The translations under genes and the position numbers were made by a program. From contig SVMM01000003.1 of NCBI GenBank assembly GCA_015067435.1, forward strand, positions 62,001 through 126,000: a DNA stretch of 64,000 bases, in the 5' to 3' direction. The DNA comes from Oscillospiraceae bacterium. GTDB taxonomy: Bacteria > Bacillota > Clostridia > Oscillospirales > Oscillospiraceae. Positions within the stretch are counted from its first letter, which is position 1. The number at the start of each line of letters is the position of its first letter. The notes under the pieces are model-generated. The model ran no database searches. It saw only the letters and a list, made by a program, of their open reading frames with translations, and had not been told where the DNA came from. Positions 15,431 through 54,065 of the stretch are shown here, in pieces.

Positions 15431-17365
15431 TCATTTCATCTGTTCGCGCATGAATCTGACAAAGTCCTTTTCCGGCATGGGGCGGGCATAATAGAAGCCC
15501 TGGATATAGTCGCAGCCCATCGCCGTGACCATCTTCACCATCTCCTGCGTCTCAATGCCCTCCACGACCAGCTCCTTGCCGATCTCGCGCATCATCCGCA
15601 CCGTGTTGCGCATGATCGACCTCCCGCTCTCGCTGCCCATATCGTCCACGACGCTCTTGTCGATCTTGATGATCTTGAGCGGCAGCCGGGAAATCCGCTG
15701 GATATTGGAATACCCGGTGCCGTAATCGTCCAGCGAGAAGGTATAGCCGCGCTCGGAAAGCCGCCGGATGTTCTCCTCCATCACGCCGCCCACGCTGCCG
15801 TAGGTCGTCTCCGTGATCTCGAAGTTGACGCGCTCCGGTGAGACGCCGTACTTCTCCTCCAGCTGGCGCACCCGATCCGGCAGTTCCGTTTGCAGGCACT
15901 GCGCAACAGACAGGTTGATCTCCACGTAGGACATTCCCATCGCGTCCAGATCGTTCTCGGACAGAAAGCGGTAGACCGCCTCCAGCACAAAATCGCCGAT
16001 GGGAAGGATCAGCCCCCGGCTCTCCGCGGCAGGGACAAAGTATCCGGGCGGAATATAGCCCATTTCGTTGTCGCGCAGGCGGATCAGCGCCTCCGCGGTG
16101 CAAAAGCGCTGCTCCTTGACGGAGTAGATCGGCTGGTAGTACATCTCGAACCGGTTCTCCATGATCGCGCGCTTCAGAACGTCGTCAATGCCGCGCCCCA
16201 GCGCGTAGACCGCGGAGCCGACCACCTCCGACGCCTCGACACTGGCTTTTTCCTGCGGCACCATGCTTGTGAACTCACGGCTGAGATAGAGGATGCCCTC
16301 GGTGCTGTTCAGATCGTCGGGGCAGCGGATATGGCACACGCGCGGCAGGAGCCGGACGCCCAGCTCCGTGAACTTGTCCGTGGTGTTCCTGCGCTCAGCG
16401 AACAGGTGCAGCAGGTCGTGCATGCCGTCGTACGAAATGTCATCCAGCACGGTATACAGCGAGCCGGGACGTTCATAATAGATCTCGCAGTTCCGCATGT
16501 GCTGTGCAAGCACGTTTTTGATGTCGCCTGCAGCCTGAATAATATAGGCGTTGAAGAAATCCTCGCCGATGTACGTTCTGACCTCGTCCGCGTTGATGAA
16601 CCGGATGGCGAGGACCTGCGCGCTCTGTTTCGAGAGGATCAGCTTGTGCACCTCGTCCCGATACGCCTTGTTGTTCAAAAGGCCGGTCTCCATGTCGGTG
16701 ACCTCCTCCGGCCGGAACACAAAGAGCATAATCAGCAGGGATACGAACGCCGAGGCAAACATCTCCACCAGATACTGCGGGTAGAACATCTCGATGATGA
16801 CCGCGGTAAAGACGAAGAGATAGAACGCCGCCAGCGAAAGCCACTTGTCCAGCCCCAGATACCCTCTGGTCAGGAACAGGTACACGACGCCTGCCGCCGC
16901 ATAGAGCCCGGAGATCACATAGAGCCATATCAGCTGCGGGCCGCGCGCATAACCGTTCTCTTCGGTGATCCGGAAAACGCCGTGCGTCACCGGATTTGCC
17001 AGCAGCAGCGCCAGCAGCGCCGCATACGGCGCCAGAAGGATCGCCTTGTTCTTCCAGCTTCGCAGGCGGTAGGTCGTCCGCGTCACGGCGAAGACGAATA
17101 TCAGGTACAGCACGCTCGTCCCGTTGCGCAGCGCCTTGTAGGCGGTGGACAGCACATAGCCCAGAACCACTTCGGAGCGGGACAGCGGCGGCGTTCCGGC
17201 GACAAACTCCATGGCGATGTCGATGCCGGTCAGGGCGAGCGAGATCCAGAGCAGCTCGATGAACAGGCGGTTGGCGAAGCCCACCGTCAGCTTTTTGTCA
17301 TATAGTGCGAGCAGGATCGCGGCGTACACAAACAGCGCGCATATGTCAAAAAAGATGATTTTCAT
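15431..17365 (-). CDS. 7TM sensor with degenerate GGDEF and intact EAL phosphodiesterase
   Basis: A 644-residue membrane protein. Residues 1-215 hold seven or so hydrophobic segments. About 225-375 is a GGDEF-like fold (DMETGLLNNKAYRDEV) without the GGDEF motif. The C-terminal EAL domain (about 390-640) keeps its catalytic set: AEALIRL, INLSVAQ, FEITETTY, LDDYGTGYSN, IIKIDKS, VEGIET and QGFYYARPMP. It should hydrolyse cyclic di-GMP in response to a membrane signal. The gene is the last of a minus-strand cluster (22082 to 15431), 74 bp after the NlpC-like lipoprotein. Its membrane region resembles the two 7TM proteins upstream in the same cluster. Confidence 0.9.
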   Translation of the reverse strand: MKIIFFDICALFVYAAILLALYDKKLTVGFANRLFIELLWISLALTGIDIAMEFVAGTPPLSRSEVVLGYVLSTAYKALRNGTSVLYLIFVFAVTRTTYRLRSWKNKAILLAPYAALLALLLANPVTHGVFRITEENGYARGPQLIWLYVISGLYAAAGVVYLFLTRGYLGLDKWLSLAAFYLFVFTAVIIEMFYPQYLVEMFASAFVSLLIMLFVFRPEEVTDMETGLLNNKAYRDEVHKLILSKQSAQVLAIRFINADEVRTYIGEDFFNAYIIQAAGDIKNVLAQHMRNCEIYYERPGSLYTVLDDISYDGMHDLLHLFAERRNTTDKFTELGVRLLPRVCHIRCPDDLNSTEGILYLSREFTSMVPQEKASVEASEVVGSAVYALGRGIDDVLKRAIMENRFEMYYQPIYSVKEQRFCTAEALIRLRDNEMGYIPPGYFVPAAESRGLILPIGDFVLEAVYRFLSENDLDAMGMSYVEINLSVAQCLQTELPDRVRQLEEKYGVSPERVNFEITETTYGSVGGVMEENIRRLSERGYTFSLDDYGTGYSNIQRISRLPLKIIKIDKSVVDDMGSESGRSIMRNTVRMMREIGKELVVEGIETQEMVKMVTAMGCDYIQGFYYARPMPEKDFVRFMREQMK

Positions 17366-17439: not shown

Positions 17440-18213
17440 CTATGCCACTCTCCGTCCGCTGATGAAGCGGTCTCGCCAGTACTGCACGTCCAGGTTCTGC
17501 ACCGAAGCGACCGTGCCCGGCTTGTTGCAGGCGATGAACTGCATGTCCCCCACGTAGATGCCCACGAACCCGGCGGAGCCGCCGATCTCGTTCGCCATCA
17601 CGCAGATATCGCCGCTCTGGAGGTCGTCCCATGCCACACTCTCGCCGAAATCCGCCATCTCGGAGGATCTGCGCGGGATCGCGATGCCGTTCTCGCGGCA
17701 GATGTAATAGACAAAGCCGGAATTGTCGAAGGTATCCGGACCGCTGCCGCCGCTCTCGAACGCGCACCCCAGCAGGTCATACGCCATCGACGCGATCCCC
17801 CCGGCAGCCGCCGAGCCGTCCTGCCGCACAGGTTCGGCGGGCGTCTCCGCCGCGGGCGCCGGCACGATCTCCGGAACCGCAGGCTCCGCCGGCCTCTCCG
17901 GCTCGGCCGGCTGCACGCTCTGGGACGGCAGCGGCGGCTCAGCCGGCTGCACGCTCTGGGACGGCAGCGGCGGCTCAGCCGGCTGCACGCTCTGGGACGG
18001 CAGCGGAGGTTCCGCCGGCGTCTGCGGCTCCTGTTCGCTCTTCGGCGCGGTTTGTGTCGTATCGGTGACGTCCGCGTTCTGCGCGGGGTCCTTCCCGTCG
18101 GCCTTGCCGCGGCCGCAGGCGGTCAGGAGCAGGGCGAGCACGAGCGCCAGAAGCAGCGTTCCGCGAAGCCGTGCTCCATTCCGTCCAACATATGTTTTGA
18201 AAAATCCGTTCAT
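17440..18213 (-). CDS. NlpC/P60-like lipoprotein lacking the catalytic Cys and His
   Basis: A 257-residue lipoprotein. The lipobox is LLLTAC (Cys about 33). A Pro/Glu-rich linker follows, containing three copies of a 12-residue unit (AEPPLPSQSVQP), encoded by a 36-bp tandem repeat. The C-terminal domain (about 140-257) follows the NlpC/P60 pattern, but the nucleophile motif D-C-S-G-F-V reads DNSGFVYYI, the catalytic His of HVGIYVG reads FVGIYVGD, and the third polar residue position reads FIACN. Endopeptidase activity is therefore unlikely; binding to peptidoglycan stem peptides or regulating another enzyme is possible. ATGA overlap with the upstream SpoIIE-type gene couples translation. Confidence in the domain is good, in its role low. 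Confidence 0.82.
   Translation of the reverse strand: MNGFFKTYVGRNGARLRGTLLLALVLALLLTACGRGKADGKDPAQNADVTDTTQTAPKSEQEPQTPAEPPLPSQSVQPAEPPLPSQSVQPAEPPLPSQSVQPAEPERPAEPAVPEIVPAPAAETPAEPVRQDGSAAAGGIASMAYDLLGCAFESGGSGPDTFDNSGFVYYICRENGIAIPRRSSEMADFGESVAWDDLQSGDICVMANEIGGSAGFVGIYVGDMQFIACNKPGTVASVQNLDVQYWRDRFISGRRVA
17906..18013 (-). repeat. Three tandem 36-bp repeats in the lipoprotein linker
   Basis: Units start at 17906, 17942 and 17978. The first two are identical and the third diverges at its end. Each encodes 12 residues of the Pro-rich linker. Copy number is probably variable by slippage between strains. Confidence 0.9.
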
Positions 18214-20066
18214 TCTGCTTCTCTCCCTTTGTACGCAAAGCCGAGCATCGTCAGATCGTCAAACTGCTCGGCGTCCTTCACAAAGCCGTCCACGGCGCGC
18301 CGCACGGCTTGCAGCATTTCCCGCGGCGCGGCGTCGGCGTTCTCGTTCAGCGCCGCGAGCATCCGCCCGGTGCCGAAGAGGGCGTTTTCCGCGTCGGTCG
18401 CCTCCGGCACGCCGTCCGTATAGACGAACAGCTTGTCCCCCGGCTCCAGCGCAAGGGTATACTCCTTGAACTTTATGCCCTCCATACCGCCGACGACGAA
18501 GCCGTGCTTGTCCTTGAACAGCTCAAACTCGCCGCCCGCACGCTTCAGCGCGGGGAATTCGTGCCCGGCGTTCGCGGCGGTCAGCGTGCCGGTGGATATC
18601 TTCAGAACGCCGATCCAGACCGTGACGAACATATCCGCGTCGTTGCGCTCGCAAAGCTGGTCATTGACGCGCCGCAGCGCTTCCGCGGGGCCGCACCCCG
18701 CCATGATCTGGTTGCGGAGCAGCGCCTTGGAGATCATCATGAACAGCGCCGCGGGAACGCCCTTGCCGGAGACGTCCGCGATCGTCAGCGCCAGATGGTC
18801 GCTGTCGATCAGGAAAAAGTCATAGAAGTCGCCGCCCACCTCCCTTGCGGGGTCCATGGCAGCATAGAGGTCAAACTCCGTCCGGTCCGGGAACGCCGGA
18901 AAGTTCATCGGAAGTATGCTGAGCTGGATATCCGCCGCGAGCTTGAGCTCCTTGTCCAGCCGGTCCAGCTCGGTCATCATGGAGACGATGCCGCGCATGG
19001 CGTCGCCGCTTTTCTTTCCCTCCATGACCGTGCGCAGAAAAGAGACCGCGTCCGTGTCCCTTTCGCGCATGAGGCAGCGCACCGAGATATGTATCTTATT
19101 CTCCGGATGCTCCGCGTTGTGCCGGCTCACCGCCTCGTCCGCCTGAGAGGTGTAATACTGCATGGTGGCGCGGCTTTCCACGTTGGAGAACATCACGAAT
19201 TTCTGCTTCTCCGTCCGGATCACGTCGCCCTCGCCGTGCAGCGTGCCGCGCAGAACGGCAAAGCACGCGGCGGGATCGCCCTCGGCCTCCAGGATCAGCG
19301 CGCTGCGCGTATCGTTCTTCCCGACAAGCGCCAGATCCAGCAGATAGACAACGTACCCCTTGTTGTACAGCCCCGATTCCTCGTCCACAAAGCGGAGCTC
19401 GCCGATCATGGAGAAGTAGATCAGCGTCACGCCGATCGCTATGCCCAGAATACCCGTGCTGTACTGCGTGAAAAACTGCGGGAGCTGGAACAGCAGCACG
19501 GACACGAGCATCGGCATGATGTGGAAAAAGCGGATCTTGGTCGCCCTGCGGTCATAGCTTCTGACCATCAGCGAGGCGGAGAGGAACAGAAGGTAGCTCA
19601 CCGCGATCATCACGTAGTAAAGCGGCTTCGCCTCGATCCGGTTGTCCGGCGCGATCGTAAACATGACGCCGTTGAAGAGATTGACGAGCAGCAGGAGCGC
19701 GAAGACCGCCAGCGGAGCGACCCTGAGCGCGCGCAGAAGGGGCTTCCGTCCCCCGCTGCGATAGAGCTTCTTTTCGACGAGGGCCAGCCACAGCCCGACG
19801 ATCGCCAGCTCGCAATATTCCTCCAGCGTCCGGAAGATCAGCGCCGCCGCGTGGCACCATGGGGCGCTCTGCCGGTACATCGCGTCAAAGGCGAAGCAGA
19901 CCAGGCAGGTAAACGTCACCTGACAGCAGAAGATGAAAAACAGCTGCAGCGCTTCGGTCTTCTTCTGCCGGATACGCTCCGACAAAACCAGCAGCAGGCC
20001 CATCACCAGAAGCGACGCGATATCCGCGTAGCAGGATACGATCGCCTCTCCCACGATCATGCCCAT
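18210..20066 (-). CDS. 7TM membrane protein with SpoIIE-type PP2C phosphatase
   Basis: A 618-residue sensor phosphatase. About 10-225 holds seven membrane segments. A GGDEF-derived fold without active motif follows (FVDEESGLYNKGYVVYL, about 230-370), then a short linker helix (ELDRLDKELKLAADIQLSILP). The SpoIIE/PP2C domain covers about 395-615 with the metal-binding motifs REVGGDFYDFF, IADVSGKGVPAALFM, NAGH, YTDGVPEAT and FDDLTML all present. Such enzymes dephosphorylate anti-sigma-antagonist proteins or Ser/Thr targets; no antagonist or anti-sigma gene is adjacent. It overlaps the upstream 7TM gene by 10 bp and the downstream lipoprotein by 4 bp, so all are in one operon. Confidence 0.92.
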   Translation of the reverse strand: MGMIVGEAIVSCYADIASLLVMGLLLVLSERIRQKKTEALQLFFIFCCQVTFTCLVCFAFDAMYRQSAPWCHAAALIFRTLEEYCELAIVGLWLALVEKKLYRSGGRKPLLRALRVAPLAVFALLLLVNLFNGVMFTIAPDNRIEAKPLYYVMIAVSYLLFLSASLMVRSYDRRATKIRFFHIMPMLVSVLLFQLPQFFTQYSTGILGIAIGVTLIYFSMIGELRFVDEESGLYNKGYVVYLLDLALVGKNDTRSALILEAEGDPAACFAVLRGTLHGEGDVIRTEKQKFVMFSNVESRATMQYYTSQADEAVSRHNAEHPENKIHISVRCLMRERDTDAVSFLRTVMEGKKSGDAMRGIVSMMTELDRLDKELKLAADIQLSILPMNFPAFPDRTEFDLYAAMDPAREVGGDFYDFFLIDSDHLALTIADVSGKGVPAALFMMISKALLRNQIMAGCGPAEALRRVNDQLCERNDADMFVTVWIGVLKISTGTLTAANAGHEFPALKRAGGEFELFKDKHGFVVGGMEGIKFKEYTLALEPGDKLFVYTDGVPEATDAENALFGTGRMLAALNENADAAPREMLQAVRRAVDGFVKDAEQFDDLTMLGFAYKGREAE

Positions 20067-22242: not shown

Positions 22243-22326
22243 TTATTGTTGTCTGCGGAAATCCTCGTTCACCGTTTCATACGGGAAGCGCGCAGGCAAA
22301 ACGACAAAATAGGAAGGAAGGATCAC

Positions 22327-24771
22327 ATGAAGAAACCTCTGGCACTGTTCCTCTCACTCGTGCTCTCGCTTTCGCTGGCCGTGCCGGCGTTCGCGGAGGG
22401 CGACACCCCCTGGTATGCCGAGGCGCAGCAGTACGTCACGGAGAAGGGGATCATGACCGGCACCGACAAGGGTTTTGAGCCGATGGGCGTCACGACCCGC
22501 GCACAGGTGTTCCAGACGATCTACAACATGGAGGGCGCTCCCGCGGCGAGCAGCGACGCGCTGTTCCCCGACGCGGTCGGCAAGTGGTATGCTCTCTCCG
22601 CGGCGTGGGCGCTGCAGGCGGGCGTGACCACCGGCGACAACGGCCTCTACTATGGCGACCGCAGCATCACCCGCGCGGAGCTGGTCACGATCCTCTACCG
22701 CTACGCGAAGGACGTGAAGAAGCTCGACGTCTCCGTGGGCGAGGACACCAATATCCTCAGCTATGACGACGCGTTCAATCTGCCCGAGTGGAGCGTTGCC
22801 GCGTTCCAGTGGGCGTGCGGCGCCGGCGTCATCAACGGCAAGGGCACGGCGCTCGCCCCCTCCGACAGCGCGACCCGCGCGGAGCTGGCGGCTGTCCTGA
22901 TGCGCTTTGATAAGCTCATCGAATCCCAGAAGATCGTGGGCGAGCTCATCTCCATCGATGTGCCCGCCGTGGACGACATCCCCGCGCACTCCGTCCCCGC
23001 GATCGTCACCCTGCCCGAGGGCGAGGGCCCGTTCCCCGCGGTCGTGATGCTGCATGGCACCGGCTCGAACAAGAACGAGGCGGGCGGCGGTTATGACCTC
23101 GCCGCGCCCGCGATGGCGGAGGCGGGCATTGCCACCATCCGCATCGACTTCATGGGCAACGGCGACTCCACCGCCAGCTACAAGGACTACAACTACACCT
23201 CCGCGAACATCGACGCGAAGGCCGCCGCCGACTACATGGCGAAGCTCGACGTGGTCGACGCGAACAAGCTCGCCGTCATGGGCTGGAGCCAGGGCGGCAC
23301 GAACGCGCTGCTCGCCGCCGCCGCGTATCCCGGCACGTTCAAGGCGGTCGTCACGTGGGCGGGCGCGCTCGACCTCACCACGATGTTCGACAACTTCGAC
23401 GCCGCCTACGAGACCGCGAAAACCACCGGCTCGTATGAGATGACCTTTGACTGGCGCGATTCCCTGCCCGTGGGCGAACGCTGGTTCAAGGAGGTCAAGG
23501 AGACCGACGTACTCAAGGCGATCGAGGGGCTCAAGGCACCCGTGCTCTCCATCCACGGCGACAAGGACGACACCGTCCCGTTCGCGGACTCCGAGAACGT
23601 GCAGAAGACGCTCGGCACGAACAACCTCTGCACGATTGAGGGCGCGGACCACACCTATAACATCTTCGTCGAGGAAGACGGCGCAACCATCATGAAGGCT
23701 ATCCGCGCCGGCATCTCCTTCCTCCAGCAGACGCTCAACGGCGCCGTGACCGGCAGGGTCATTGAGGTCGAGAAGTACGGCCATGCCAAGCTCGACACCA
23801 CCATCCTCGGCTTCACCGCCGCGGGCTACGCGCTCGGCGACGTGGTGACGGTCAAGGGCGGCACCTACGCCGGCGACATGCCGTATTTCGACGGCTACTA
23901 TGTCGACAACGGCGACTACATGCTGCGCGCCTATCCGGGCCACGAGAACATTGCCGTCTGCATCAATTACGGCAAGTTCGCCGAGACCGCGGGGCTGAAC
24001 ATCGGCGACACCGTCACCATCTCCCTCAAGGAGAAGGCGGGCGCGCTCACCACGCAGCAGATCAACAACCTCGTTTACACCGACAAGCGCGCGGACTATG
24101 ACTCCGACGCGGTGTTTGCGAACTTCCGCGAGGTCAATACCACGGGCATCGGCGCGGGCAAGCTCTACCGCTCCTCCTCCCCCGTCAACAACGAGCACAA
24201 CCGCGCCGCCGTCGCCAACAAGCTCGTCGAGGCCGCGGGCGTGAAGTCCGTCATGAACCTCGCCGACACGGAAGAGGAATACGCCGCCTACGTTGCCGCC
24301 GACACGTTCTCGTCGATGTACTACAAGGGCCTGTACGACGCGGGCAACGTCATCGTTCTGGGTATGCCGGTGAACTTCTCCTCCGACGAGTTCGCCGAGG
24401 GCATCGTCAAGGGCCTGACCTTCCTCTCCGAGCACGAGGGTCCCTATCTCGTCCACTGCAACGAGGGCAAGGATCGCGCGGGTTTCACCGCGATGCTGCT
24501 CGAAGCGCTGATGGGCGCCTCGCAGGATGAGATCGTGGCGGACTACATGCTCAGCTACGTCAACTACTACCACATCGATCCCCAGGCGGACGCCGCGAAG
24601 TACCAGATGCTCGCGGAGAAGAACGTCATGGAGATGCTGCGCACGGTCGTGGGCGTCGAAAAGGGCGCTTCCCTCGCGGACGTCGATCTCGCGAATGCCG
24701 CCGAGACCTACCTCACCGCGCATGGCATGACCGACACCGCGATTGCCGCGCTGAAGGCGAACCTCAAGTAA
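22327..24771 (+). CDS. SLH / alpha-beta hydrolase / tyrosine phosphatase fusion, secreted
   Basis: An 814-residue surface protein. Residues 1-24 are a signal peptide (ending PAFAEG). About 25-200 holds three SLH modules (WYAEAQQYVTEKGIMTG, WYALSAAWALQAGVTTGDNG, WSVAAFQWACGAGVINGKG). About 210-485 is an alpha/beta hydrolase with an oxyanion HGTGSN segment, the nucleophile elbow GWSQGG (Ser321), HGDKDDTVP and DHTYN for Asp and His. About 490-600 is a beta domain whose GDxVTV and NYGKFAETAGLNIGDTV segments recall the C-terminal domain of SAM-hydroxide adenosyltransferases. About 610-814 is a Y_phosphatase3-type domain with the CX5R loop HCNEGKDRAG (Cys711, Arg717). The ATG follows GGAAGG. All catalytic residues seem intact. 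A wall-bound esterase plus phosphatase is inferred; substrates are unknown. Confidence 0.88.
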   Translation: MKKPLALFLSLVLSLSLAVPAFAEGDTPWYAEAQQYVTEKGIMTGTDKGFEPMGVTTRAQVFQTIYNMEGAPAASSDALFPDAVGKWYALSAAWALQAGVTTGDNGLYYGDRSITRAELVTILYRYAKDVKKLDVSVGEDTNILSYDDAFNLPEWSVAAFQWACGAGVINGKGTALAPSDSATRAELAAVLMRFDKLIESQKIVGELISIDVPAVDDIPAHSVPAIVTLPEGEGPFPAVVMLHGTGSNKNEAGGGYDLAAPAMAEAGIATIRIDFMGNGDSTASYKDYNYTSANIDAKAAADYMAKLDVVDANKLAVMGWSQGGTNALLAAAAYPGTFKAVVTWAGALDLTTMFDNFDAAYETAKTTGSYEMTFDWRDSLPVGERWFKEVKETDVLKAIEGLKAPVLSIHGDKDDTVPFADSENVQKTLGTNNLCTIEGADHTYNIFVEEDGATIMKAIRAGISFLQQTLNGAVTGRVIEVEKYGHAKLDTTILGFTAAGYALGDVVTVKGGTYAGDMPYFDGYYVDNGDYMLRAYPGHENIAVCINYGKFAETAGLNIGDTVTISLKEKAGALTTQQINNLVYTDKRADYDSDAVFANFREVNTTGIGAGKLYRSSSPVNNEHNRAAVANKLVEAAGVKSVMNLADTEEEYAAYVAADTFSSMYYKGLYDAGNVIVLGMPVNFSSDEFAEGIVKGLTFLSEHEGPYLVHCNEGKDRAGFTAMLLEALMGASQDEIVADYMLSYVNYYHIDPQADAAKYQMLAEKNVMEMLRTVVGVEKGASLADVDLANAAETYLTAHGMTDTAIAALKANLK

Positions 24772-24792: not shown

Positions 24793-24827
24793 CACGCCGC
24801 AGGAGCCATCCTGCGGCGTGTTTTTTT
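24793..24827 (+). terminator. Strong terminator between convergent genes
   Basis: Perfect 12-bp stem (24793-24804 with 24809-24820; CACGCCGCAGGA), GCCA loop, then seven T. Confidence 0.95.
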
Positions 24828-24835
24828 CGTATTGC

Positions 24836-27508
24836 TCAGTCCACGGTCATGTAGGACAGGCCCAGCGTGCCCGGGCCGCAGTTGGAGGAGATGGCGGGCG
24901 AGGTCTCCTGGAAGATGACCTCCTCGAATTCGATCAGCTTTTTGATCTCCGCGGCGACCTCGTCCAGCTCGGCGCGGGTCAGCTTCGTGTAGGTGATGAA
25001 GAGCATCCTGCGGTCAATGGTATCGCGCTTGGCGAACGCCCATTTGATGTATTGCTTCCATGTCTTGGAACGGGCGCCGATGAAGATGCGGTCCGTGACC
25101 ATCTTCCTCTTGCGCATCACCAGCACCGGGTGCACCATCAGCCCGTCGATCAGGTGGTTCAGCCCCCGGCTGATGCGCCCCGAACGGGCGAGGAACTCCG
25201 TGCTGTCAACGATAAAGCTGGTGCGCAGCCTCGGGCGGAGCCGTTCGAGCTCTTGCAGGATCTTTTCCGCCGTCACGCCGTTTTTCGCCATCTGGTCCGC
25301 GGCGAGCACCATCAGGCCGAGGCCCGTGGACAGGTGCCCGCTGTCCACCACGAAGACGTTGTCGAAGGTCTGCGTCGCCTCCGTCGCGGCGGCGTAGCCC
25401 AGGCTGGTGCCGCTCGCCATGGTGATGTGGATGACGTTGTTCGCGCGCAGCAGCTGGCGGGCGAAGAACTTCTCGTACTCCGATGCCTCCGGCGGCTCCG
25501 AGCGCAGCTCGCCGCGCTGCTGCGTCATGTATTCCAGCACGTCGCGGGACTCCGCCTCCACCCCGTCGAGGAAAATGCCGTGCCCCGTGCGCACATGGTA
25601 GGGCAGCACGGCGATCTCGCGGCTCTTGATGGTCTGCCTGGGCAGGTCGCACACGCTGTCGGTGGTGACGACGACCTGCAGCTTCTTCTCCCGCCGCCGG
25701 ACGGAGACGGACGCATCGTCCGCCGCGGCAAGGTCGGTATCGATGACGCGGATCAGCTCGCGCGGCAGCATCCGCAGCAGCTCGCGCTCCAGCTCGTCGC
25801 CGTTGACCGGCTTGAGCAGGTATCCGTCGAAGCCCTCCTTCACGTACAGCGCCTGCGTGTCGCTGCCGGCGTTCGCCGTCAGCGCGACCACCTTCGTCTC
25901 CCGGCACAGCCCGCCGACCTGGCGGCGGATCTCATGCAGGCACTCGATGCCGTCCATCTCGGGCATCATATGGTCCATGAAGATCAGGTGGTATTGCGTT
26001 TCCAGCGTCTTTTTCAGCGCCTCCTTGCCGCTCTCCACCGTTTCGACCTTCACGCGCGTGTCGCGCAGCAGCTTGCGCACCACGAGCAGGTTGGTGGAGT
26101 TGTCGTCCACCACCAGGATGCGTGCGTCCGGCGCCTCAAAGCTCTGCCGGTACCGCCTGCGGTGCCCGATGGAGTGGCGCAGTTCCAGATTGAGCTCGCC
26201 GATCTGCTTGTCCGCGGCGGCCTTTTGCGGCAGCTCGACAATGAAGCTGGAGCCCTGCATGTACACGCTGTTGACGCGGATGGTGCCGCCCATCAGGTCG
26301 ACGAACTGCTTGACGATGGCAAGGCCGAGCCCCGTGCCCTCGATCAGGCGGTTCTTCTCCTCGTCCACGCGCCGGAAGGCGGAGAACAGATGGGGGATGC
26401 TCTCCTTCTTCAGGCCCATGCCGGTGTCGGTGACGGTGTAGGTCACAAGCCCCATGCCGTCCTCCTGCTGCCGGTACTGCATGGACAGCGTGACGGAGCC
26501 CTCCGACGTGTATTTGATGGCGTTGGTCAGCAGATTGATAAGGATCTGCTTGATCTTGACCTCGTCGCCCACCAGCTGGGCGGGCAGCATGGGGTCGACG
26601 TCGATGTGGAACTCCAGCCCCTTCTCCTTCGCGCGGATCCAGAGCATGCCCACCAGCTCGGAGAGCATCGCGCCGGTGTCGTAGGTCACGGCGGTGATCT
26701 CCATCTTGCCGGACTCGATCTTCGACATGTCCAGAATGTCGTTGATGAGGTGCAGCAGCATCTTGCTCGCCGCCTGAATGTTCATCGCGTCCTCCGCCAC
26801 CTCGTCGGAGATGTCCTCGCGCAGGATCATCTCGTTGAGGCCGACGATCGTGTTGATCGGCGTGCGGATCTCATGGCTCATGTTGGAAAAGAACTGGTTC
26901 TGCGCGCGGTTGAGCTTCTCGATCTCCCGCTCGCGCTGTTCGGATCGCGCGATCTCTTCGCCGTAGGAGCGCACGGCGTAGCTGACGACAAAGCCGCAGG
27001 CGGTGCTTACGATCAGCAGCGCAAACAGCGAGCTGCGGTTGGCGTAGCCCTCCGAGCGCTGCATCATCAGTTCCGGGTGGTAAATATACAGCACGTAGCA
27101 CGCCGAGGCGACCGCGGCGTTGACGATGATGAAGAACACGCGCAGCTTCCCGGACATGACCAGACTGATATACAGCGCGAAGGCGACGAACCAGATCGGC
27201 GAGCCGCCCCGGCCGCCGCCGCTGAAAAAGAACACCGCCGGCATCAGGATAAAGTCGACGAGGAACGAGATGACCGCCGCGCTGAGGTTCATCTTGTGCA
27301 CGGTGTAGCCCCACTGCGCCACCACCGCCGTGATAAGGAAGCAGCAGCCGAGCAGGCCCTTGATGAGCGGACGCTGGCCCACGGCGAAGGAATAGAGCAG
27401 CATGAACAGCTCCGCCAGCAGCAGGATCATCGTGGGCTGCATGAAAAGGCGCGTCCGAAGGTCCTGCTCCGGATCGAACACGGCCTCCAAATACTTCTTG
27501 ATGCCCAT
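24836..27508 (-). CDS. Hybrid histidine kinase-receiver fused to a DegV domain
   Basis: An 890-residue membrane protein. About 20-185 has five or six membrane segments. HisKA has FFSNMSHEIRTPIN with His212; the ATPase domain has NLLTNAIKYTSEG, DTGMGL and GTGLGL. A receiver (about 461-580) has VVDDN, Asp512 in FMDHMMPEMDG and the LKP lysine. The last 280 residues (about 610-890) are a complete DegV/FakB-like domain: VTTDSVCDLP, ITMASGTSLGYAAA, VDSGHLSTGLGL, STEFLARSGRIS, HPVLVMRKRKM and NCGPGTLGLSYM near the end. DegV proteins bind fatty acids and present them to a kinase. Here the pocket is covalently attached to a two-component protein, so lipid sensing or lipid-dependent output is plausible. 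It is the last gene of a three-gene operon, 1 bp after the preceding stop. Confidence 0.9.
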   Translation of the reverse strand: MGIKKYLEAVFDPEQDLRTRLFMQPTMILLLAELFMLLYSFAVGQRPLIKGLLGCCFLITAVVAQWGYTVHKMNLSAAVISFLVDFILMPAVFFFSGGGRGGSPIWFVAFALYISLVMSGKLRVFFIIVNAAVASACYVLYIYHPELMMQRSEGYANRSSLFALLIVSTACGFVVSYAVRSYGEEIARSEQREREIEKLNRAQNQFFSNMSHEIRTPINTIVGLNEMILREDISDEVAEDAMNIQAASKMLLHLINDILDMSKIESGKMEITAVTYDTGAMLSELVGMLWIRAKEKGLEFHIDVDPMLPAQLVGDEVKIKQILINLLTNAIKYTSEGSVTLSMQYRQQEDGMGLVTYTVTDTGMGLKKESIPHLFSAFRRVDEEKNRLIEGTGLGLAIVKQFVDLMGGTIRVNSVYMQGSSFIVELPQKAAADKQIGELNLELRHSIGHRRRYRQSFEAPDARILVVDDNSTNLLVVRKLLRDTRVKVETVESGKEALKKTLETQYHLIFMDHMMPEMDGIECLHEIRRQVGGLCRETKVVALTANAGSDTQALYVKEGFDGYLLKPVNGDELERELLRMLPRELIRVIDTDLAAADDASVSVRRREKKLQVVVTTDSVCDLPRQTIKSREIAVLPYHVRTGHGIFLDGVEAESRDVLEYMTQQRGELRSEPPEASEYEKFFARQLLRANNVIHITMASGTSLGYAAATEATQTFDNVFVVDSGHLSTGLGLMVLAADQMAKNGVTAEKILQELERLRPRLRTSFIVDSTEFLARSGRISRGLNHLIDGLMVHPVLVMRKRKMVTDRIFIGARSKTWKQYIKWAFAKRDTIDRRMLFITYTKLTRAELDEVAAEIKKLIEFEEVIFQETSPAISSNCGPGTLGLSYMTVD

Positions 27509-27509
27509 C

Positions 27510-30071
27510 TCAATCCTCCTCCGGCATGAATTCCAGCACCTCGTCCGCCGCCCCGTCGCCCGGCGCGTCCGCCGGGGCGCTCACGGGCGTCTCCCCGAAG
27601 CATTGGAGCACCGCGTCCGACGTCTCGACGTAGCTCGTGAGCATCGACTCGTGCAGTCTGGACACCGTGCCCACGTCGTTCTCCTTGGCGGAGAACTCCA
27701 GCGTGCGCGCCGTTTCGGACAGCTTTTCCGCGCCGATCATCTTGGACGTGCTCTTGAGCGCGTGAACGAGGATGGCGTAATTCTTCCAGTCCGCCGCGTC
27801 GTAAAAGCGGCGCATCCCGCTCATCTTGCCCGCCGCGCTCTGCGCGAATTCCAGCAGCATCGAGCGGTAAAAATCGCTGTCGCCGCGGCAGTAGCGCAGG
27901 CCCTGGCGCGTGCTGATCCCCACCGCCTCCAGCGCGGCGTAGGGGTCGTCCTCCTTTGCGGCGTCCTCCCCCGCCGCGTCGGGCGCAGCGTCGGGCGCAG
28001 CCATCTTCGACGGGCGCTCGTAGCGGATCGCGGACTTCGGCAGCACGCGCTTGAGCACGCGCTCCAGATCCGTGATCTCAATGGGCTTGGGGATAAACCC
28101 GTCGAAGCCCTCGGCGAGGAACATCTCGCGCGCGCTGCTGACCGCGTTCGCCGTCAGCGCGAGGATGATCTGCTCCTCGCCGCGCTGCGCCGCTTCGCTC
28201 CGCAGGCGCTTCATCGCTTCCACGCCGTCCATCTCCGGCATCATGTGATCCATGAAGATCAGGTCGAAGTGCTTTCTCTGGCACAGCTCGATGGACTCCG
28301 GGCCGGAGCGCGCCGTGGTGACGCGCATCCCATAGTCGCTGAAAATGCCCTCCGCCACCATCAGGTTCATCGGCTCGTCGTCCACGACCAGCGTTTCCAG
28401 TCCGGGCGTGTAGATGCGCCTGTCGTCCTCCAGCTCCTCCTGCCGCGCCGTCGGCAGGCTCAGCACCGTCGCCGCGGGGAAGCAGTAGAAGGGCTTGCGC
28501 AGCACCTTGACGGCGGAGCTGCGGCGCGGCACGAACGCGTCGTTCGCCACAACGATGACCTCCGTCTCGTCCGTCAGCGATTCGAGGTAATCCGCCGCGC
28601 CGAGGTATTCCTCCGCGCCGACGAAAATGTGCGTCAGGCGGTAGAGCTTTTGCAGCTTGCGCAGCTCCTCCTCATTCTCTGCGCGGTGCAGCGGCACGCC
28701 GAGGCCGTGCGTCAGGTTGGCGATCATGCGGTTGTAGAAATCGCGCACCTGCGGGACCTCCAGCTTCTCCAGACAGTCGAAGCACGCGAGGCACAGCTGG
28801 TCGCGGTCGCTCAGGGACATGCAGGCGTCGGCGTCCACGATCTCCTGCGGGATGCTGACCGAAACGGTCGTCCCGACGCCGAGCGTGCTGTCGATGGTCA
28901 TAAAGCCGCCCATCTCGCGCACGAGGCCGTGGACGATGGTCAATCCGAGGCCCAGGCCGCCCGTGCCGCGCGTGCGGCCGGAGTTTCGCTGATAGAAGCT
29001 GTCAAAGATATGCTCCAGCTCCGTCTGCGTCATGCCGAGGCCGGTGTCCGACACCTCGATGCACAGGTTGACGCCGTAGGGGCGCGGCATGGAGTAGACA
29101 CGGCAGTACACGCCGCCCTTGGGCGTAAACTTGATGCCGTTCGTGACCAGATGGTTGAGGATCTTCTTGACCTTGCCCGCGTCGCCGAGGATCGCGGAGG
29201 GGATCTCCGGCGAGACGTCGAACACCAGCTCGCAGCTGATCTCCCCGCGCATGCGGAGGTCCGTGACCAAATCGTTCATCACCGAGGCGATCATGTACGG
29301 CTCGCGGGAGACCACCAGCTTGCCTACGTCCAGCTCGGTGTAGTCCAGAATGTCGCTGATCTTTTCCGCCACGCGGTGGCCCGCGCTCTGCACGGTCTTG
29401 ATGTCCTCGCGCACCGCGTCGTCCTTCTCCCGCTTGAGGATGACCGTGGTCAGGCCGATGACGGCGTTGACCGGCGTGCGGATCTCGTGGGAGAGGTTGG
29501 TGAGGAAGTCGTCCATCCGGTGCGTCTCCTCCTCCAGCCGTGCGATGTCGCTGTCGACGTTGAGAAGGAGCTGCGCCCACTTGCGGATGTTGACCCGCGC
29601 CGTCCAGCCGATCAGGATAATCAGGATGCAGTGCAGCACCAGCCGCAGTATCGCATCGCGATCCAGCGTCCCCTCACGCCACAGCCCGACCGTCGCGCAG
29701 GCCATCGTCAGGTAATAGGTCAGCATGCTCAGCGTGATAAGGTGCTTTTCCCCCGTCATGGTGAACACGAGGATCAGCGCCGAGATAATCGTCGTCATGT
29801 CGAAGATGCTCTCGCCGTGGATGCCGAAGAAGAACGACGTCACCAGCAGCAGGATCGCGTAGATCCACAGCCGCGCGCGTTCGGTCAGCGACTGGCGGAT
29901 GTGGAGCGCCCACGAGATGACCACACCGATGAAGGCCAGCGGAAGTGCCCACGCCTCCCAGCCATTTGCCAGCGTCGACGCCGTCACGACGAGCGAAAGG
30001 TTCGTCAGCGAAACCAGGATCACCAGATGGGAGGTCTTGAACACTTCGTTTTTGCGCAGTCTGTTCTCCAT
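27510..30071 (-). CDS. Hybrid histidine kinase with receiver and HPt domains
   Basis: An 853-residue membrane kinase. Six or so membrane segments lie within about 15-165. HisKA has FLTNLSHEIRTPVN (His195), the ATPase domain has LVTNGIKFTPKGG, DTGLGM and GGLGLGLTIV. A degenerate receiver-like region (about 435-560) precedes a true receiver with VVDDEPMN and Asp608 in FMDHMMPEMDG. A C-terminal HPt (about 690-830) has VHALKSTSKMIGA with His770. Multistep phosphorelay within one chain is expected. It starts directly after the stop of the REC-HD-GYP gene and is followed after 1 bp by the DegV-fused kinase. An Ala/Asp-rich linker (about 675-695) contains a short repeat (PDAAPDAA). Confidence 0.92.
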   Translation of the reverse strand: MENRLRKNEVFKTSHLVILVSLTNLSLVVTASTLANGWEAWALPLAFIGVVISWALHIRQSLTERARLWIYAILLLVTSFFFGIHGESIFDMTTIISALILVFTMTGEKHLITLSMLTYYLTMACATVGLWREGTLDRDAILRLVLHCILIILIGWTARVNIRKWAQLLLNVDSDIARLEEETHRMDDFLTNLSHEIRTPVNAVIGLTTVILKREKDDAVREDIKTVQSAGHRVAEKISDILDYTELDVGKLVVSREPYMIASVMNDLVTDLRMRGEISCELVFDVSPEIPSAILGDAGKVKKILNHLVTNGIKFTPKGGVYCRVYSMPRPYGVNLCIEVSDTGLGMTQTELEHIFDSFYQRNSGRTRGTGGLGLGLTIVHGLVREMGGFMTIDSTLGVGTTVSVSIPQEIVDADACMSLSDRDQLCLACFDCLEKLEVPQVRDFYNRMIANLTHGLGVPLHRAENEEELRKLQKLYRLTHIFVGAEEYLGAADYLESLTDETEVIVVANDAFVPRRSSAVKVLRKPFYCFPAATVLSLPTARQEELEDDRRIYTPGLETLVVDDEPMNLMVAEGIFSDYGMRVTTARSGPESIELCQRKHFDLIFMDHMMPEMDGVEAMKRLRSEAAQRGEEQIILALTANAVSSAREMFLAEGFDGFIPKPIEITDLERVLKRVLPKSAIRYERPSKMAAPDAAPDAAGEDAAKEDDPYAALEAVGISTRQGLRYCRGDSDFYRSMLLEFAQSAAGKMSGMRRFYDAADWKNYAILVHALKSTSKMIGAEKLSETARTLEFSAKENDVGTVSRLHESMLTSYVETSDAVLQCFGETPVSAPADAPGDGAADEVLEFMPEED

Positions 30072-31297: not shown

Positions 31298-33454
31298 ATG
31301 GAGAGATATCAGTTCGATGAAAGGGAACAGCACTTGATGGAAAACTCGCGCATTCCCTTTGCCGTATACCAGTTCATCGACAGGCGCGTGGTCACGCTCG
31401 CCCTCTCCAGGGGCATGTGCGATCTTCTGGGGCTTGACGATCTGGCGGACGCCTACAGCCTGATGGACCGCGACATGTACCGCAGCACGCATCCCGACGA
31501 CGTGGCGCGCGTCGCCGACGCGGCGTTCCATTTTGCCAGCGCGGGCGGCGAATACGACGTGGTCTACCGCTCAAAGCCGGAAAACAGCGAGGACTACAAG
31601 GTCATCCACGCGCACGGCGAGCACATTGTCACGGAGACCGGCATCCGTCTGGCGGTCATCTGGTACGCCGACGAGGGCGTCTATGCCGCCGGAGGCCCCG
31701 GCGCGAAGTACAAGCTCAACGGCGTGTTCAGCAAGGCGCTGCGCGAGGAGAGCATGGTCCGGCGCAGCTACTACGACAATCTCACCGGCCTTCCGAATCT
31801 GGGCTTCTTTTTCGAGCTCGCCACCCGCAGCAGGGATTCGCTCGCGCTGGACGGGAAGAAGACCGCGATGCTGTTCTTCGACCTCTGCCGGATGAAGTCG
31901 TTCAACCGCGAGCACGGCTTCGCGGAGGGCGACCGTCTGCTGCTCGCCTTTTCGCGGAGGCTGGCGGCGTTTTTCGGCAACGAGAACTGCGCCCATTTCG
32001 GCGAGGACAATTTCGCCGCCTACACCGACGCGGAGGGGCTGGACAGCAAGCTTGCCGACCTGTTTGCGGCGTGCGCCGAGATCAACGACGGGAAAAACCT
32101 TCCCGTCCGCGTGGGCATCTACCTCTGGCAGGACGCGAAAATGGTGGCAAGCACCGCGTGCGACCACGCAAAGGTCGCCTGCGACACGCTGCGCGGCGTC
32201 TATTACTCCACCTATTGCCGCTTCACCGAGAGCATGCTGACGGCGGCCGCCAAGCGGCAGTATTTTATCGACAACCTCGACCGCGCGCTCAGCGAGGGCT
32301 GGATCCAGGCGTATTATCAGCCCATCGTCCGCGCCGCGAACGGCAAGGTGTGCGACGAGGAGGCGCTGGCGCGTTGGACAGACCCGGAAAAGGGCTCCTT
32401 TACGCCGGCGGAGTTCACCCCCGTGCTGGAGGAGGCAAAGCTGATCTACAAGCTTGACCTCTTCATGGTGGATCAGGCGCTGGACAAGATGAAGCGTCTG
32501 GCGGATGAGGGGATCTATATTGTCCCGTGCTCCGTGAACTTCTCCCGCTCCGACTTCGACGCCTGCGATCTGGTGGAGGAGATCCGCCGGCGGGTGGACG
32601 ACCGCGGAATCCCCCGCAGCATGCTGACCATCGAAATCACGGAGAGCGTGATCGGCAGTGACTTCGAGTACATGCGCGAGCAGGTGGACCGCTTCCACGC
32701 GATGGGCTTCCGCGTGTGGATGGACGACTTCGGCAGCGGCTATTCCTCGCTGGACGTCCTGCAGAGCATCCGCTTCGACCTCATCAAGTTCGACATGCTG
32801 TTCATGCAGCAGTTCGACCAGTCGGACAAGTGCAAGATCATCCTCACGGAGCTGACGAAAATGGCCATCGCCCTCGGCGTCGAAACGGTGACGGAGGGCG
32901 TGGAGACCGCCGAACAGGCCGAGTTCCTGCGTGAGATCGGCTGCACGCGCCTGCAGGGCTTCTATTTTTGCAGGCCGCTCCCGCTGGAGGGCGTTCTGGA
33001 CCGCTATCACACGGGGGGCCAGATCGGCTTCGAGAATCCGGAGGAATCCGGGTACTACGCGTCCATCGGTAAAATCAACCTGTACGACCTCGCGGTCGTC
33101 ACAAACGAGGACACGGGGGCGTTCGACCAGTATTTCGACACGCTCCCCATGGCGATCCTCGAATCGAGCGGGGACGAGGCCACGATCATACGCTGCAACC
33201 GCTCCTACCGGGAGTTTATGAAGCGCATGTTCGGGATCGACCTGCGCGGCGTCAAGGTGCGCTTCGACGCCGCGCGGGACACCGGCAATTCGTTTATGGA
33301 CGCGGTGCGCCAATGCGGCAGGGACGGGAACCGGATCATTCTGGACGAGGAGATGCGCGACGGCTCGTCCGTCCACTTCTTCGTGCGCCGCGTCGCGATC
33401 AATCCCGTCACGGGCACCGCGGCGCTGGTCGCCGTTGTCCTCTCCGTCAAGTGA
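31298..33454 (+). CDS. PAS-like / degenerate GGDEF / EAL protein
   Basis: A 718-residue cytosolic protein. The first ~130 residues look PAS-like (YQFIDRRVVTLALSRGMCDLLGL, THPDDVARV). The GGDEF domain (about 155-310) starts YDNLTGLPNLGFFFEL, but the signature reads FGEDNF instead of GGDEF, so cyclase activity is unlikely. The EAL domain (about 325-570) keeps DEEALARW, VNFSRSDF, LTIEITES, MDDFGSGYSS, LIKFDMLF, TEGVETAEQ and QGFYFCRPLP, so phosphodiesterase activity is expected. The C-terminal ~140 residues form a second PAS-like fold (FDTLPMAILESSGDEATIIRCN). No membrane segments are present. RBS is GGGGAG. It diverges from the HD-GYP operon, so two enzymes that would lower cyclic di-GMP share this locus. 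Confidence 0.9.
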   Translation: MERYQFDEREQHLMENSRIPFAVYQFIDRRVVTLALSRGMCDLLGLDDLADAYSLMDRDMYRSTHPDDVARVADAAFHFASAGGEYDVVYRSKPENSEDYKVIHAHGEHIVTETGIRLAVIWYADEGVYAAGGPGAKYKLNGVFSKALREESMVRRSYYDNLTGLPNLGFFFELATRSRDSLALDGKKTAMLFFDLCRMKSFNREHGFAEGDRLLLAFSRRLAAFFGNENCAHFGEDNFAAYTDAEGLDSKLADLFAACAEINDGKNLPVRVGIYLWQDAKMVASTACDHAKVACDTLRGVYYSTYCRFTESMLTAAAKRQYFIDNLDRALSEGWIQAYYQPIVRAANGKVCDEEALARWTDPEKGSFTPAEFTPVLEEAKLIYKLDLFMVDQALDKMKRLADEGIYIVPCSVNFSRSDFDACDLVEEIRRRVDDRGIPRSMLTIEITESVIGSDFEYMREQVDRFHAMGFRVWMDDFGSGYSSLDVLQSIRFDLIKFDMLFMQQFDQSDKCKIILTELTKMAIALGVETVTEGVETAEQAEFLREIGCTRLQGFYFCRPLPLEGVLDRYHTGGQIGFENPEESGYYASIGKINLYDLAVVTNEDTGAFDQYFDTLPMAILESSGDEATIIRCNRSYREFMKRMFGIDLRGVKVRFDAARDTGNSFMDAVRQCGRDGNRIILDEEMRDGSSVHFFVRRVAINPVTGTAALVAVVLSVK

Positions 33455-51479: not shown

Positions 51480-54065
51480 TCAAACGGAAAGGATCGAAAC
51501 CGCCGCCATCGCCGCGAAGAGCAGGACGCCCCACGCGGAGAGCACCGTCCGAAAGCGCACGCCGTCAGCGGATATCTCGCGATTGCGGACGCGGTAGAAG
51601 AACAGCACGGAGCCCAGAAGCGACAAAAGCAGCAGCGCCGCGAGATAGAGCAGAAGCAAAAGCACCCGCGGCTCGCCGATCACGGCGGACCACCGCACCT
51701 CGGAGAACATCGCGTCCGGCATGGCGTCGTACGCCAAGTTTATGAGTGCCGGAAGCACGACCGCGCTCATGCCGTTGATGACCACATGCAGCGCGATCGT
51801 GTAGCGGAGCCGCCGCGTCCGAAGATAGACGTAACCGAACACCAGCCCCAGCAAAAAGGCGTAACACGCCTGCGGGATCGAGCTGTGGAACAGCGCGAAC
51901 AGGAGCGCCGAGGCAAACAGCGCCATCTTCTCCCCGTAGGGAAGCAGCCGCTCCATCACGCAGCGGCGAAAGACGAATTCCTCCATCAGCGGCGCGGCAA
52001 GCGCAAGAATCAGCGCCTGCACCGGCGGGCTGACCCCGGAGGGGGCCTCGATCTGCGGCAGCGGAAGCGAAAATCGGACGACGGAGTGGAACAGCTCGTC
52101 CAAAAGGAGTCCCATCAGGTTCCCGCCATACATCACGAAAAAGCATACGGGGAAGATGGAGAAAAAACGCCGGACGCCGAGGCCGCGTTCTTCGCAGCCA
52201 TGCTTCGCCCCGAGCTGCCGGAGCACCCATTTCGGTCCCGCGAGCAGCGCAAAGGCGGGCAGTCCGAAGGCGTAGATGGGCAGATAGACCGCCAGCACCG
52301 GCGAGACGTCCGGCGCGGCGGAGAGGGCGATCTGCCCGCCGCGGATGGCGAGGAACATACCGGCGAGCGCCAGCCCCACACGCGTCGCCGCGCGCCGCGC
52401 GCCGCGCTCGTCCGGCACATAGCCGTCCGTCCGCGGCAAAAGCCCTTCGCTGGGCGAGAGCCAGACCCCGGCAAGCCCCAGAAAGACGGAGCCGAACAGC
52501 AGATCCAGCACGGTGACAGCCGCGAAGCCCAGCGCGGCGTTGCCCGCGATGATGCAGGAGGAAACCGCTATGGCGTCGAAAATGATCCCCGCGTAGAGCA
52601 GCAGGATCTGGATGATCTGCTTGAGGCTCGTCCCGATGGCGGTCGGGATGGAGACGTCCACGAACGCTCCCGCCGCGGCGGCGAAAAAGTCCACGGAGAA
52701 CAAAACGGGCAGGAACAGCAGCCCCGTCAGCGGTGAAAAGCCCGCCGCCGCCGTTCCGACCATGAGCGGCAGGGCGACGTCCAGCACGCAGTTGCAGCTG
52801 CCCCCCAGCAGGGAGTAGAACAGCTTGCCCCAGATCGGCGTCGGCTGGAGCAGGAAGGACGCCTTGCGGATGTCCTCCGTGACCGGTGAGACGATGGTGC
52901 GGAAAAACGCCATCACGCACAGCGCCAGCGCGGGGATATAGGAGACGGGCTTATCCAGAAACCAGCGGTCGAACAGCCCCGCCGCCAGCGCGGCGCACAG
53001 ATACGTCACGGTGGTGCGGGTGATCGCGCCGAAGCGGGAAAAGCGGAAGCGGTTGTAGAGCGCCTTGAAAAAGTAGACGCTTCCGCCGCGTCCGAAGCGG
53101 AAGCCGTCCCGCTCCATCTCCCGGCGGTAACGCCTCCGGCCCGTCACCAGCAGCGTGGGGTTCTCGCCGCTCAGCTCCTCCATCAGCATCGCGAGCTCCT
53201 GCGCGTGGCTCAGCGTCTCCTCATAGTAGTCCGCCGGGATGCGCCCCGCCGCAAAAGCCAGCGCGGCAAGCAGCCCCGCGTTCAGCGCGAGCAGGCCGAG
53301 CGACAGGGGGATATTCCCCTCCAGCGCGCAGCCAAGAAAGCCCTTGATCCAGCCCCAGACGGGTATCCAGCGCATCAGCGGCGCGTTGAAGAACCGGCTG
53401 GCGCAGCGCAGGAGCAGCTCCTCCCCGCTGTCGCGATAGAGCCGGTAGAACGCAAGCCCCACCACGCCGAGCACGGCAAAAATGCCCCAGCGCAGGTTCC
53501 GGCGAAAGCGCGGATGCGTGCTGCCCACCTCGTAGATGACGACCTTGAGCAGGACGGAGAACGCCATGGTCAGGCACCACGCCGCCGGTATGGCGAAAGC
53601 GGCATAGGGCGTGAGGGAAAAGCGTCCCGCCAGCGAGGGCAGCTCCAGGCACAGCAGCACGGTACACAGCGCCGCCGGGCCCATCGTGGTCAAAAGCCGG
53701 AAGATGAGCACCCTTTGCGGGCTCAGCGCGCTCGCGAACAGCAGATTGACGTCCGACTGCAAAAACAGGTTGCTGACGCTCTTTTCCGCGCCGACGGACT
53801 GGATCACCAGAATGCCGAGGATCAGCAGCCCGGCGAAAAGCTCCGCGACGTTCACCCCCGTGACGCTGTTCATCTCCAGAAGCTCCGCCCAGCTGTCCGG
53901 CAGCACGGACTCGGCGGCAAGGCGGTGATAATACCACACGACCAGCTGCCACACCGCGAAGAGCGCCAGCAGAAAACCGACCGTCAGAAGGAACACCCAC
54001 GTCCGGAAGAGCTTCCGGAACTGGTTCCAAGCGCTGTGCCGGAAGTAGTAAAACAGCATCCGCAT
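51480..54065 (-). CDS. ABC exporter permease fused to a CPBP intramembrane protease
   Basis: An 861-residue polytopic membrane protein. The first ~550 residues resemble the putative ABC exporter permease family (PF16962-like), with about 12 membrane segments and a central cytosolic loop (LSHAQELAMLMEEL, about 285-300). The last ~220 residues form a CPBP (Abi/Rce1-like) domain: APLMEEFVFRRCVMERL (the EExxxR motif, Glu695-Glu696), ALLFALFHSSIP (His) and ALHVVINGM (His/Asn), all intact. The ATPase is encoded just upstream (2-bp gap). CPBP proteases of Firmicutes often mature or confer immunity to bacteriocin-like peptides, so export coupled to processing is a plausible role. The fusion is unusual; no frameshift is seen at the junction. 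Confidence 0.85.
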   Translation of the reverse strand: MRMLFYYFRHSAWNQFRKLFRTWVFLLTVGFLLALFAVWQLVVWYYHRLAAESVLPDSWAELLEMNSVTGVNVAELFAGLLILGILVIQSVGAEKSVSNLFLQSDVNLLFASALSPQRVLIFRLLTTMGPAALCTVLLCLELPSLAGRFSLTPYAAFAIPAAWCLTMAFSVLLKVVIYEVGSTHPRFRRNLRWGIFAVLGVVGLAFYRLYRDSGEELLLRCASRFFNAPLMRWIPVWGWIKGFLGCALEGNIPLSLGLLALNAGLLAALAFAAGRIPADYYEETLSHAQELAMLMEELSGENPTLLVTGRRRYRREMERDGFRFGRGGSVYFFKALYNRFRFSRFGAITRTTVTYLCAALAAGLFDRWFLDKPVSYIPALALCVMAFFRTIVSPVTEDIRKASFLLQPTPIWGKLFYSLLGGSCNCVLDVALPLMVGTAAAGFSPLTGLLFLPVLFSVDFFAAAAGAFVDVSIPTAIGTSLKQIIQILLLYAGIIFDAIAVSSCIIAGNAALGFAAVTVLDLLFGSVFLGLAGVWLSPSEGLLPRTDGYVPDERGARRAATRVGLALAGMFLAIRGGQIALSAAPDVSPVLAVYLPIYAFGLPAFALLAGPKWVLRQLGAKHGCEERGLGVRRFFSIFPVCFFVMYGGNLMGLLLDELFHSVVRFSLPLPQIEAPSGVSPPVQALILALAAPLMEEFVFRRCVMERLLPYGEKMALFASALLFALFHSSIPQACYAFLLGLVFGYVYLRTRRLRYTIALHVVINGMSAVVLPALINLAYDAMPDAMFSEVRWSAVIGEPRVLLLLLYLAALLLLSLLGSVLFFYRVRNREISADGVRFRTVLSAWGVLLFAAMAAVSILSV

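Follow-up and report, generated by a model that had tools for sequence, protein, structure and literature searches.

Membership in the DegV family (PF02645) commonly leads to a protein being regarded as a fatty acid carrier, and the carriers FakB1 and FakB2 of S. aureus are members. In FakB1, according to two papers (PMC8892158, PMC9136124), the carboxylate of the fatty acid is bound by a network made up of Thr62, Ser95, Ser171 and His270; phosphorylation by FakA requires Arg173, and Arg205 is the docking residue for both FakA and the membrane. Fatty acid sensing is described in PMC5391125 at the membrane (RpfC) and through a PAS domain (RpfS, RpfR); the DSF input of the Xanthomonas RpfC/RpfG system is a medium-chain fatty acid (PMC5391125). 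The SaeRS system of S. aureus is inhibited by free fatty acid, and Fak acts on it indirectly, by lowering the pool, an earlier case of a two-component system under the control of fatty acid pools (PMC5539427). No account of a fusion of a DegV/EDD domain with a kinase or receiver was found in the literature searched (subscription papers and preprints lay outside it), so that, within that literature, we agree with an earlier note on this DNA that no system of this form has been described. To our knowledge, SaeS has no FakB domain. PMC9912610 and PMC12688256 concern stand-alone DegV proteins.

Here we analyzed a window of 64,000 nt (the whole stretch of DNA under study) from an Oscillospiraceae bacterium (GCA_015067435.1, contig SVMM01000003.1, positions 62,001 to 126,000), a bacterium of gut and rumen type. 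It encodes a DegV domain that resembles FakB in its whole-length fold profile, its tunnel inserts and its mostly kept hydroxyl residues, but that is fused behind a receiver, lacks the docking arginine, carries asparagine for the network histidine and belongs to a family in which the catalytic arginine is relaxed. The neighboring genes recall RpfC/RpfG, a multi-membrane-segment HK-REC-Hpt kinase with a REC-HD-GYP regulator, in architecture only. They differ from it in having two kinases, one Hpt and a DegV domain. We draw this parallel with a fatty-acid-responsive system as an analogy.

The fusion gene and its relatives

The fusion gene (P0002; ORF call, translation and Pfam) occupies 24836..27508 and encodes 890 aa. 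These coordinates had been given correctly in the earlier note; the strand, absent from it, is minus, and all parts of the protein described here are read on that strand. Five or six membrane segments come first (aa 21-180, 26969..27448), in a region that, by hydropathy scan, has no sizeable soluble outside domain. Pfam then finds, in the order proposed earlier and with the key residues where they had been placed, HisKA (aa 202-267, 67.0 bits, 26708..26905), HATPase_c (aa 314-429, 93.1 bits, 26222..26569), a receiver (Response_reg, aa 464-575, 84.2 bits, 25784..26119) and DegV (aa 612-887, 24848..25675). By alignment, the codons of His212 and Asp512 lie at 26873-26875 and 25973-25975. Among the aligned relatives (the best 80 of at least 551), His212, the ATPase residues N325, N329, D361, G363, G391 and G393, and the receiver residues D468, D469, D512 and K566 are invariant (80/80), and T544 is kept in 79/80. 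The HisKA histidine, the ATPase motifs and the DD-D-T-K set of the receiver, which characterize a hybrid histidine kinase, are all present. The best NCBIfam matches of the kinase part are hybrid kinases of the TorS and BarA type (308 and 299.5 bits), far under the equivalog cut-offs of 676.5 and 890.

A profile search with the C-terminal part, suggested earlier as a check, returned DegV both in Pfam (154.9 bits, cut-off 27, profile positions 2-278 of 280) and in NCBIfam (TIGR00762, 163.8 bits, cut-off 99.7). These full-length matches above curated cut-offs place the protein in the DegV family. When the domain was searched against PDB sequences, 21 distinct sequences matched at E up to 0.001. 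The best was 2dt8 ("DegV family protein", E 4.4e-22), followed by 4x9x ("DegV domain-containing protein MW1315", E 1.4e-18), which we take to be S. aureus FakB2; the remaining 19 are named DegV, Fak B, fatty-acid-binding or uncharacterised.

DegV domains number seven in this genome, and two of these lie in long frames, namely the window gene and one on contig C26. Fusions, told from stand-alone DegV by score, were found in 7/200 genomes of the family, own genome included, with the long frames of lower-scoring matches checked only in part. In five of the six other fusion genomes at least the receiver lies in frame with DegV, and in the sixth the contig begins within the receiver and truncates the gene. 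Fusions recur in the samples from the order, class and phylum (394, 391 and 398 genomes; thresholds 1e-60, 1e-80 and 1e-80), and none with this domain order was found outside the window's class among the 391 and 398 genomes at E up to 1e-80. One lower-scoring family match (L023, 448-2337) is a 630-aa frame in which Pfam detects DegV only, with no kinase or receiver: a stand-alone-type DegV ends the frame, and its first 350 residues, which match no Pfam entry at E up to 0.01, are perhaps merely an open upstream stretch.

A scan of named contigs with a REC-DegV alignment as query yielded at least 551 confirmed relatives, the best 80 of which were kept. By NCBI family name, these 80 comprise 69 Lachnospiraceae, 6 Oscillospiraceae and 1 Clostridiaceae, with 4 lacking a family. 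Receiver and DegV share one frame in all 80 loci (81 genes), as follows from a query that held both; the neighboring genes were not selected for. The count of the HisKA-REC-DegV order that had been called for earlier gave kinase, receiver and DegV in one frame in 79 of the 81 genes, the other two (L095, L101) being cut by a contig end. Mean pairwise identity in 1500 sampled pairs is 72% for HisKA, 58% for REC, 37% for DegV and 27% (26.6%) for the membrane part, so that DegV is more variable than the kinase core.

Antisense to the fusion gene, an open frame of 903 aa spans it from end to end (24818-27529, plus strand). Comparable long opposite-strand frames lie over other genes of the window, and base composition is the probable cause.

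Partner kinase, Hpt domain and regulator

Directly upstream of the fusion gene, at a distance of one base, lies a second hybrid kinase of 853 aa (P0003, 27510..30071, minus strand; Pfam and partner searches). Its order is membrane segments, HisKA, HATPase, a private middle region, REC and Hpt. The Hpt domain (aa 738-804, 27660..27860, minus strand; Pfam 32.0 bits, cut-off 24.6) is the only one of the pair, and it would make an Hpt available to the receiver of the fusion, as a multistep phosphorelay demands; this transfer is predicted from sequence.

Among the best 80 of at least 551 loci, 75 of the 81 fusion genes have enough upstream flank to look for such a partner, and each of the 75 is immediately preceded, on the same strand, by hybrid-kinase sequence of the partner type. 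Partner kinase and receiver lie in one frame in 72/75, with just 269 aa in the case of L118; a run of unknown bases breaks the partner of L130, that of L114 is in two adjacent frames, and in the partner frame of L093 Pfam shows only ATPase and Hpt. The middle region, between ATPase and receiver, was recognised in 71 of the 72 one-frame partners. We used this region as a tag for co-occurrence. It is present in 6 of the 7 family genomes with a fusion (the seventh, G222, has a fusion truncated at a contig end) and in none of the 193 without, the family samples for fusion and tag being taken as the same since the settings were identical and all 26 listed genomes were shared. A set of 17 chosen genomes shows it in 13/13 with a fusion and 0/4 without, and it occurs twice in the two genomes that have two fusions, one copy in G766 lying on another contig than the fusion. 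These genomes are related and not independent, so we attach no probability to the counts. The fusion gene is one half of a strict, obligate two-kinase pair.

Exactly one Hpt was found in 72 of the 75 pairs from the best 80 of at least 551 loci, on the partner in 50 and on the DegV protein in 22; no pair has two. The pairs with the Hpt on the DegV protein belong to another clade than that of the window. Of the three pairs without one, the second pair of L112 and that of L106 adjoin a separate Hpt gene, and for L128 none is in sight. Hpt domains were called by BLAST with two Hpt queries and checked by Pfam on 14 kinases, with one disagreement: the weak BLAST match to a partner Hpt in L106 was not borne out by Pfam. 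On a tree of the 80 fusions, with L106 then still labelled as partner-Hpt, the position of the Hpt changes once, which means that the one-Hpt rule rests on conservation and not on repeated swaps. Independent swaps as proof of a shared Hpt were rejected for this reason. At L112, two fusion pairs stand in tandem with the Hpt gene between them.

The three-gene run starts with a REC-HD-GYP response regulator of 335 aa (P0004, 30072..31079, minus strand; Pfam), which is followed without a gap by the partner gene. In the best 80 of at least 551 loci, 68 pairs could be tested for a kinase-free regulator next to them: 51 have one and 17 do not, seven further pairs being left uncalled. These adjacent regulators are REC alone (24), REC-HD-GYP (13), REC-GGDEF (7) and, in smaller numbers, others. 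HD-GYP, GGDEF or EAL domains are found near at least 32 of the 80 loci, a count made with few queries on cut flanks, so that c-di-GMP is an output seen often but not throughout.

The window has further signalling genes around the relay: a GGDEF-EAL protein with a weak PAS match (31298-33454, plus strand), divergent from the relay run, an EAL protein (15431-17365, minus strand) and a SpoIIE phosphatase (18210-20066, minus strand), which make the neighborhood rich in such genes. Beside the relay, three SLH repeats, an alpha/beta hydrolase and a tyrosine-phosphatase domain (Y_phosphatase3) share a single frame (22246-24771, plus strand), an unusual cell-surface fusion. Another frame (51480-54065, minus strand) joins an ABC exporter-type membrane protein (PF16962) and a CAAX protease-like (Rce1) domain.

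DegV residues compared with FakB

For the residue comparison, we take FakB2 T61, S93, R170, R202 and H266 to be the counterparts of the FakB1 sites named above. The FakB2 letters were checked on the 4x9x chain, and the FakB1 and FakB2 numberings were matched by spacing, without direct alignment. At these positions the residues of the window protein are S, S, R, I and N. By alignment columns and residue count, S670 and S702 stand at T61 and S93, and R778 at R170 (all within 24848..25675, minus strand). By alignment, I810 (25079..25081, minus strand) replaces the arginine that docks FakA and the membrane, and N876 (24881..24883, minus strand), within an NCGPG motif, replaces the histidine of the carboxylate network. 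The statement in the earlier note that the domain has all its usual motifs is therefore wrong for R202 and H266. The FakB hydroxyls are present and the docking arginine and network histidine are not; because these two defining residues are missing, we do not file the protein as a FakB in spite of its DegV profile.

We compared 87 non-redundant fusions with 51 stand-alone DegV proteins, controls that were the nearest relatives rather than drawn at random. Arg202 is found in 0/87 fusions versus 48/51 controls, and the site holds F, M, I or V in 64/88 fusions. His266 is kept in 3/87 versus 49/51, with asparagine in 74/87 (75/88). Arg170, kept by the window protein, is present in 31/87 and absent in 56/87, versus 50/51 in the controls. 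Serine or threonine occupies position 61 in 74/87 (75/88) versus 51/51, leaving 13/88 with neither, and Ser93 is found in 57/87 (58/88) versus 51/51, being absent in 30/88. No fusion combines Arg170, Arg202 and His266, as 47/51 stand-alone proteins do. One of the controls (L055) is in fact a split form, and is the source of the sole Asn and of the sole Lys at position 170 among them.

Pfam DegV matches 86/86 family domains at E up to 0.001, and 6/86 also match FakA-like_C, which occurs once in the window's genome. The three tunnel-forming inserts, whose bounds were moved from FakB1 to FakB2 numbers by offset, are within one residue of full length in 88/88 fusions. Such inserts are absent from FakA_C, as stated in PMC9136124. 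With all three kept, a FakA_C-like domain without a tunnel is disfavoured. The near fixation of asparagine in a domain that is otherwise variable argues against plain decay.

At four loci, in three genomes, a hybrid kinase is followed directly by a stand-alone DegV gene. The kinase consists of HK, the middle region and REC, with an Hpt in two of the loci, and is the only kinase detected in the stretch. Asparagine stands at the His266 site in all four split forms, one of which retains Arg202. The four group in a single clade (SH-aLRT 99) next to the fusions. In the DegV tree that includes all four, the fusions require two changes, and the branches concerned are weak; in an earlier tree with a single split form, the fusions made up one side of a branch with a support of 41. 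These loci show that this DegV type goes with a kinase, fused or not. Features beyond those of the earlier note are the family-wide change from histidine to asparagine, the kinase with which the fusion is obligately paired, the presence of just one Hpt in the pair and the HD-GYP regulator.

Role of the DegV domain

We give about even credence to a reading in which a FakB-derived domain, freed from FakA, acts as an acyl-ligand input to a shared phosphorelay of two kinases and one Hpt. The DegV domain would bind a fatty acid, or an acyl molecule like it, drawn from the membrane, and fatty acid kinase would no longer use it as a substrate. Whether the domain is loaded or empty would affect how the HK-REC core acts as kinase or phosphatase. 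Both kinases would send phosphate to the single Hpt, from which it would pass to the regulator, and in the window the REC-HD-GYP regulator would then change c-di-GMP. The fuller claim, that a carrier domain was detached from FakA, changed in the residues for docking and for the head group, and taken into an obligate two-kinase phosphorelay of gut and rumen Clostridia as its cytoplasmic lipid receptor, is possible, and we hold it to be somewhat less than evenly probable. The position after the receiver is unusual for an input and counts against the sensor reading. We also count against it that Ser93 is found in only 58/88 fusions and neither S nor T at position 61 in 13/88, that 17/68 pairs have no adjacent kinase-free regulator, that c-di-GMP domains were seen near only 32/80 loci, itself a lower bound, and that one split form has Arg202.

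If the acyl-input reading is true, this would be FakB-based fatty acid sensing by a kinase, distinct from the membrane sensing of RpfC and the PAS-domain sensing of RpfS and RpfR. Membrane or dietary fatty acids would then be linked to phosphorelay control in Lachnospiraceae and their kin and, in the window, to c-di-GMP control as well. A sizeable branch of DegV has its carrier-defining residues consistently replaced, and the domain stays part of a signalling system. A simple sequence test is suggested, in which NCGPG in place of an HxGPG-type motif, together with the lack of Arg202, may tell a signalling DegV from a FakB.

The strongest competitor is a domain that binds no ligand and serves in docking or dimerisation, placing the two kinases or the Hpt, which we consider unlikely. 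The EDD-fold C-terminal domain of FakA does bind protein without a tunnel, the two kinases are strict partners, and the F, M, I or V at the docking site could make a hydrophobic contact; the domains that also match FakA-like_C and the loss of Ser93 in 30/88 fit as well. However, the tunnel-forming inserts, reported as absent from FakA_C (PMC9136124), are kept here, and the asparagine in 75/88 is unlike a decaying pocket. The split loci, moreover, show a single detected kinase in the stretch, so that joining two kinases is not the sole role of the domain.

A second alternative, that DegV is an output through which receiver phosphorylation controls fatty acid capture or release for FakA and phospholipid synthesis, seems improbable to us. 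DegV sits after the receiver, the usual place of outputs and relay domains, the genome has a FakA-type gene, the hydroxyl positions are mostly kept and the window protein retains the catalytic R778. Against this, the docking arginine is absent from 87/87 fusions and the catalytic arginine from 56/87. Because the window protein keeps its catalytic arginine, this alternative, though weakened, retains some probability for that one protein. The earlier note had offered two options, lipid-controlled signalling and phosphorelay-controlled lipid handling. Its link between DegV and a phosphorelay stands, while lipid handling through FakA is made unlikely by the same arginine losses, and FakA-type use of the domain is disfavoured on its residues. 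Lipid-controlled signalling, a candidate function, is the option that we prefer.

There is also a slim chance that DegV binds a small molecule other than a fatty acid and that the asparagine marks a change of head group. The exchange of H for N is almost fixed in the fusions (74/87) and seen in 4/4 split forms, but the positions whose hydroxyls hold the carboxylate in FakB are mostly kept. Finally, chance fusion, assembly error or frameshift has nothing in its favour except that the architecture is rare (7/200 family genomes), and is refuted by the two copies in this genome and by 80 further one-frame loci from the best 80 of at least 551, which also answers the frameshift check set out earlier.

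The second copy, on contig C26, has the order HK-REC-DegV-Hpt. Adjoining it (L008, 10345-12297) is a REC-GGDEF protein whose Hpt-like tail resembles the one on the fusion.
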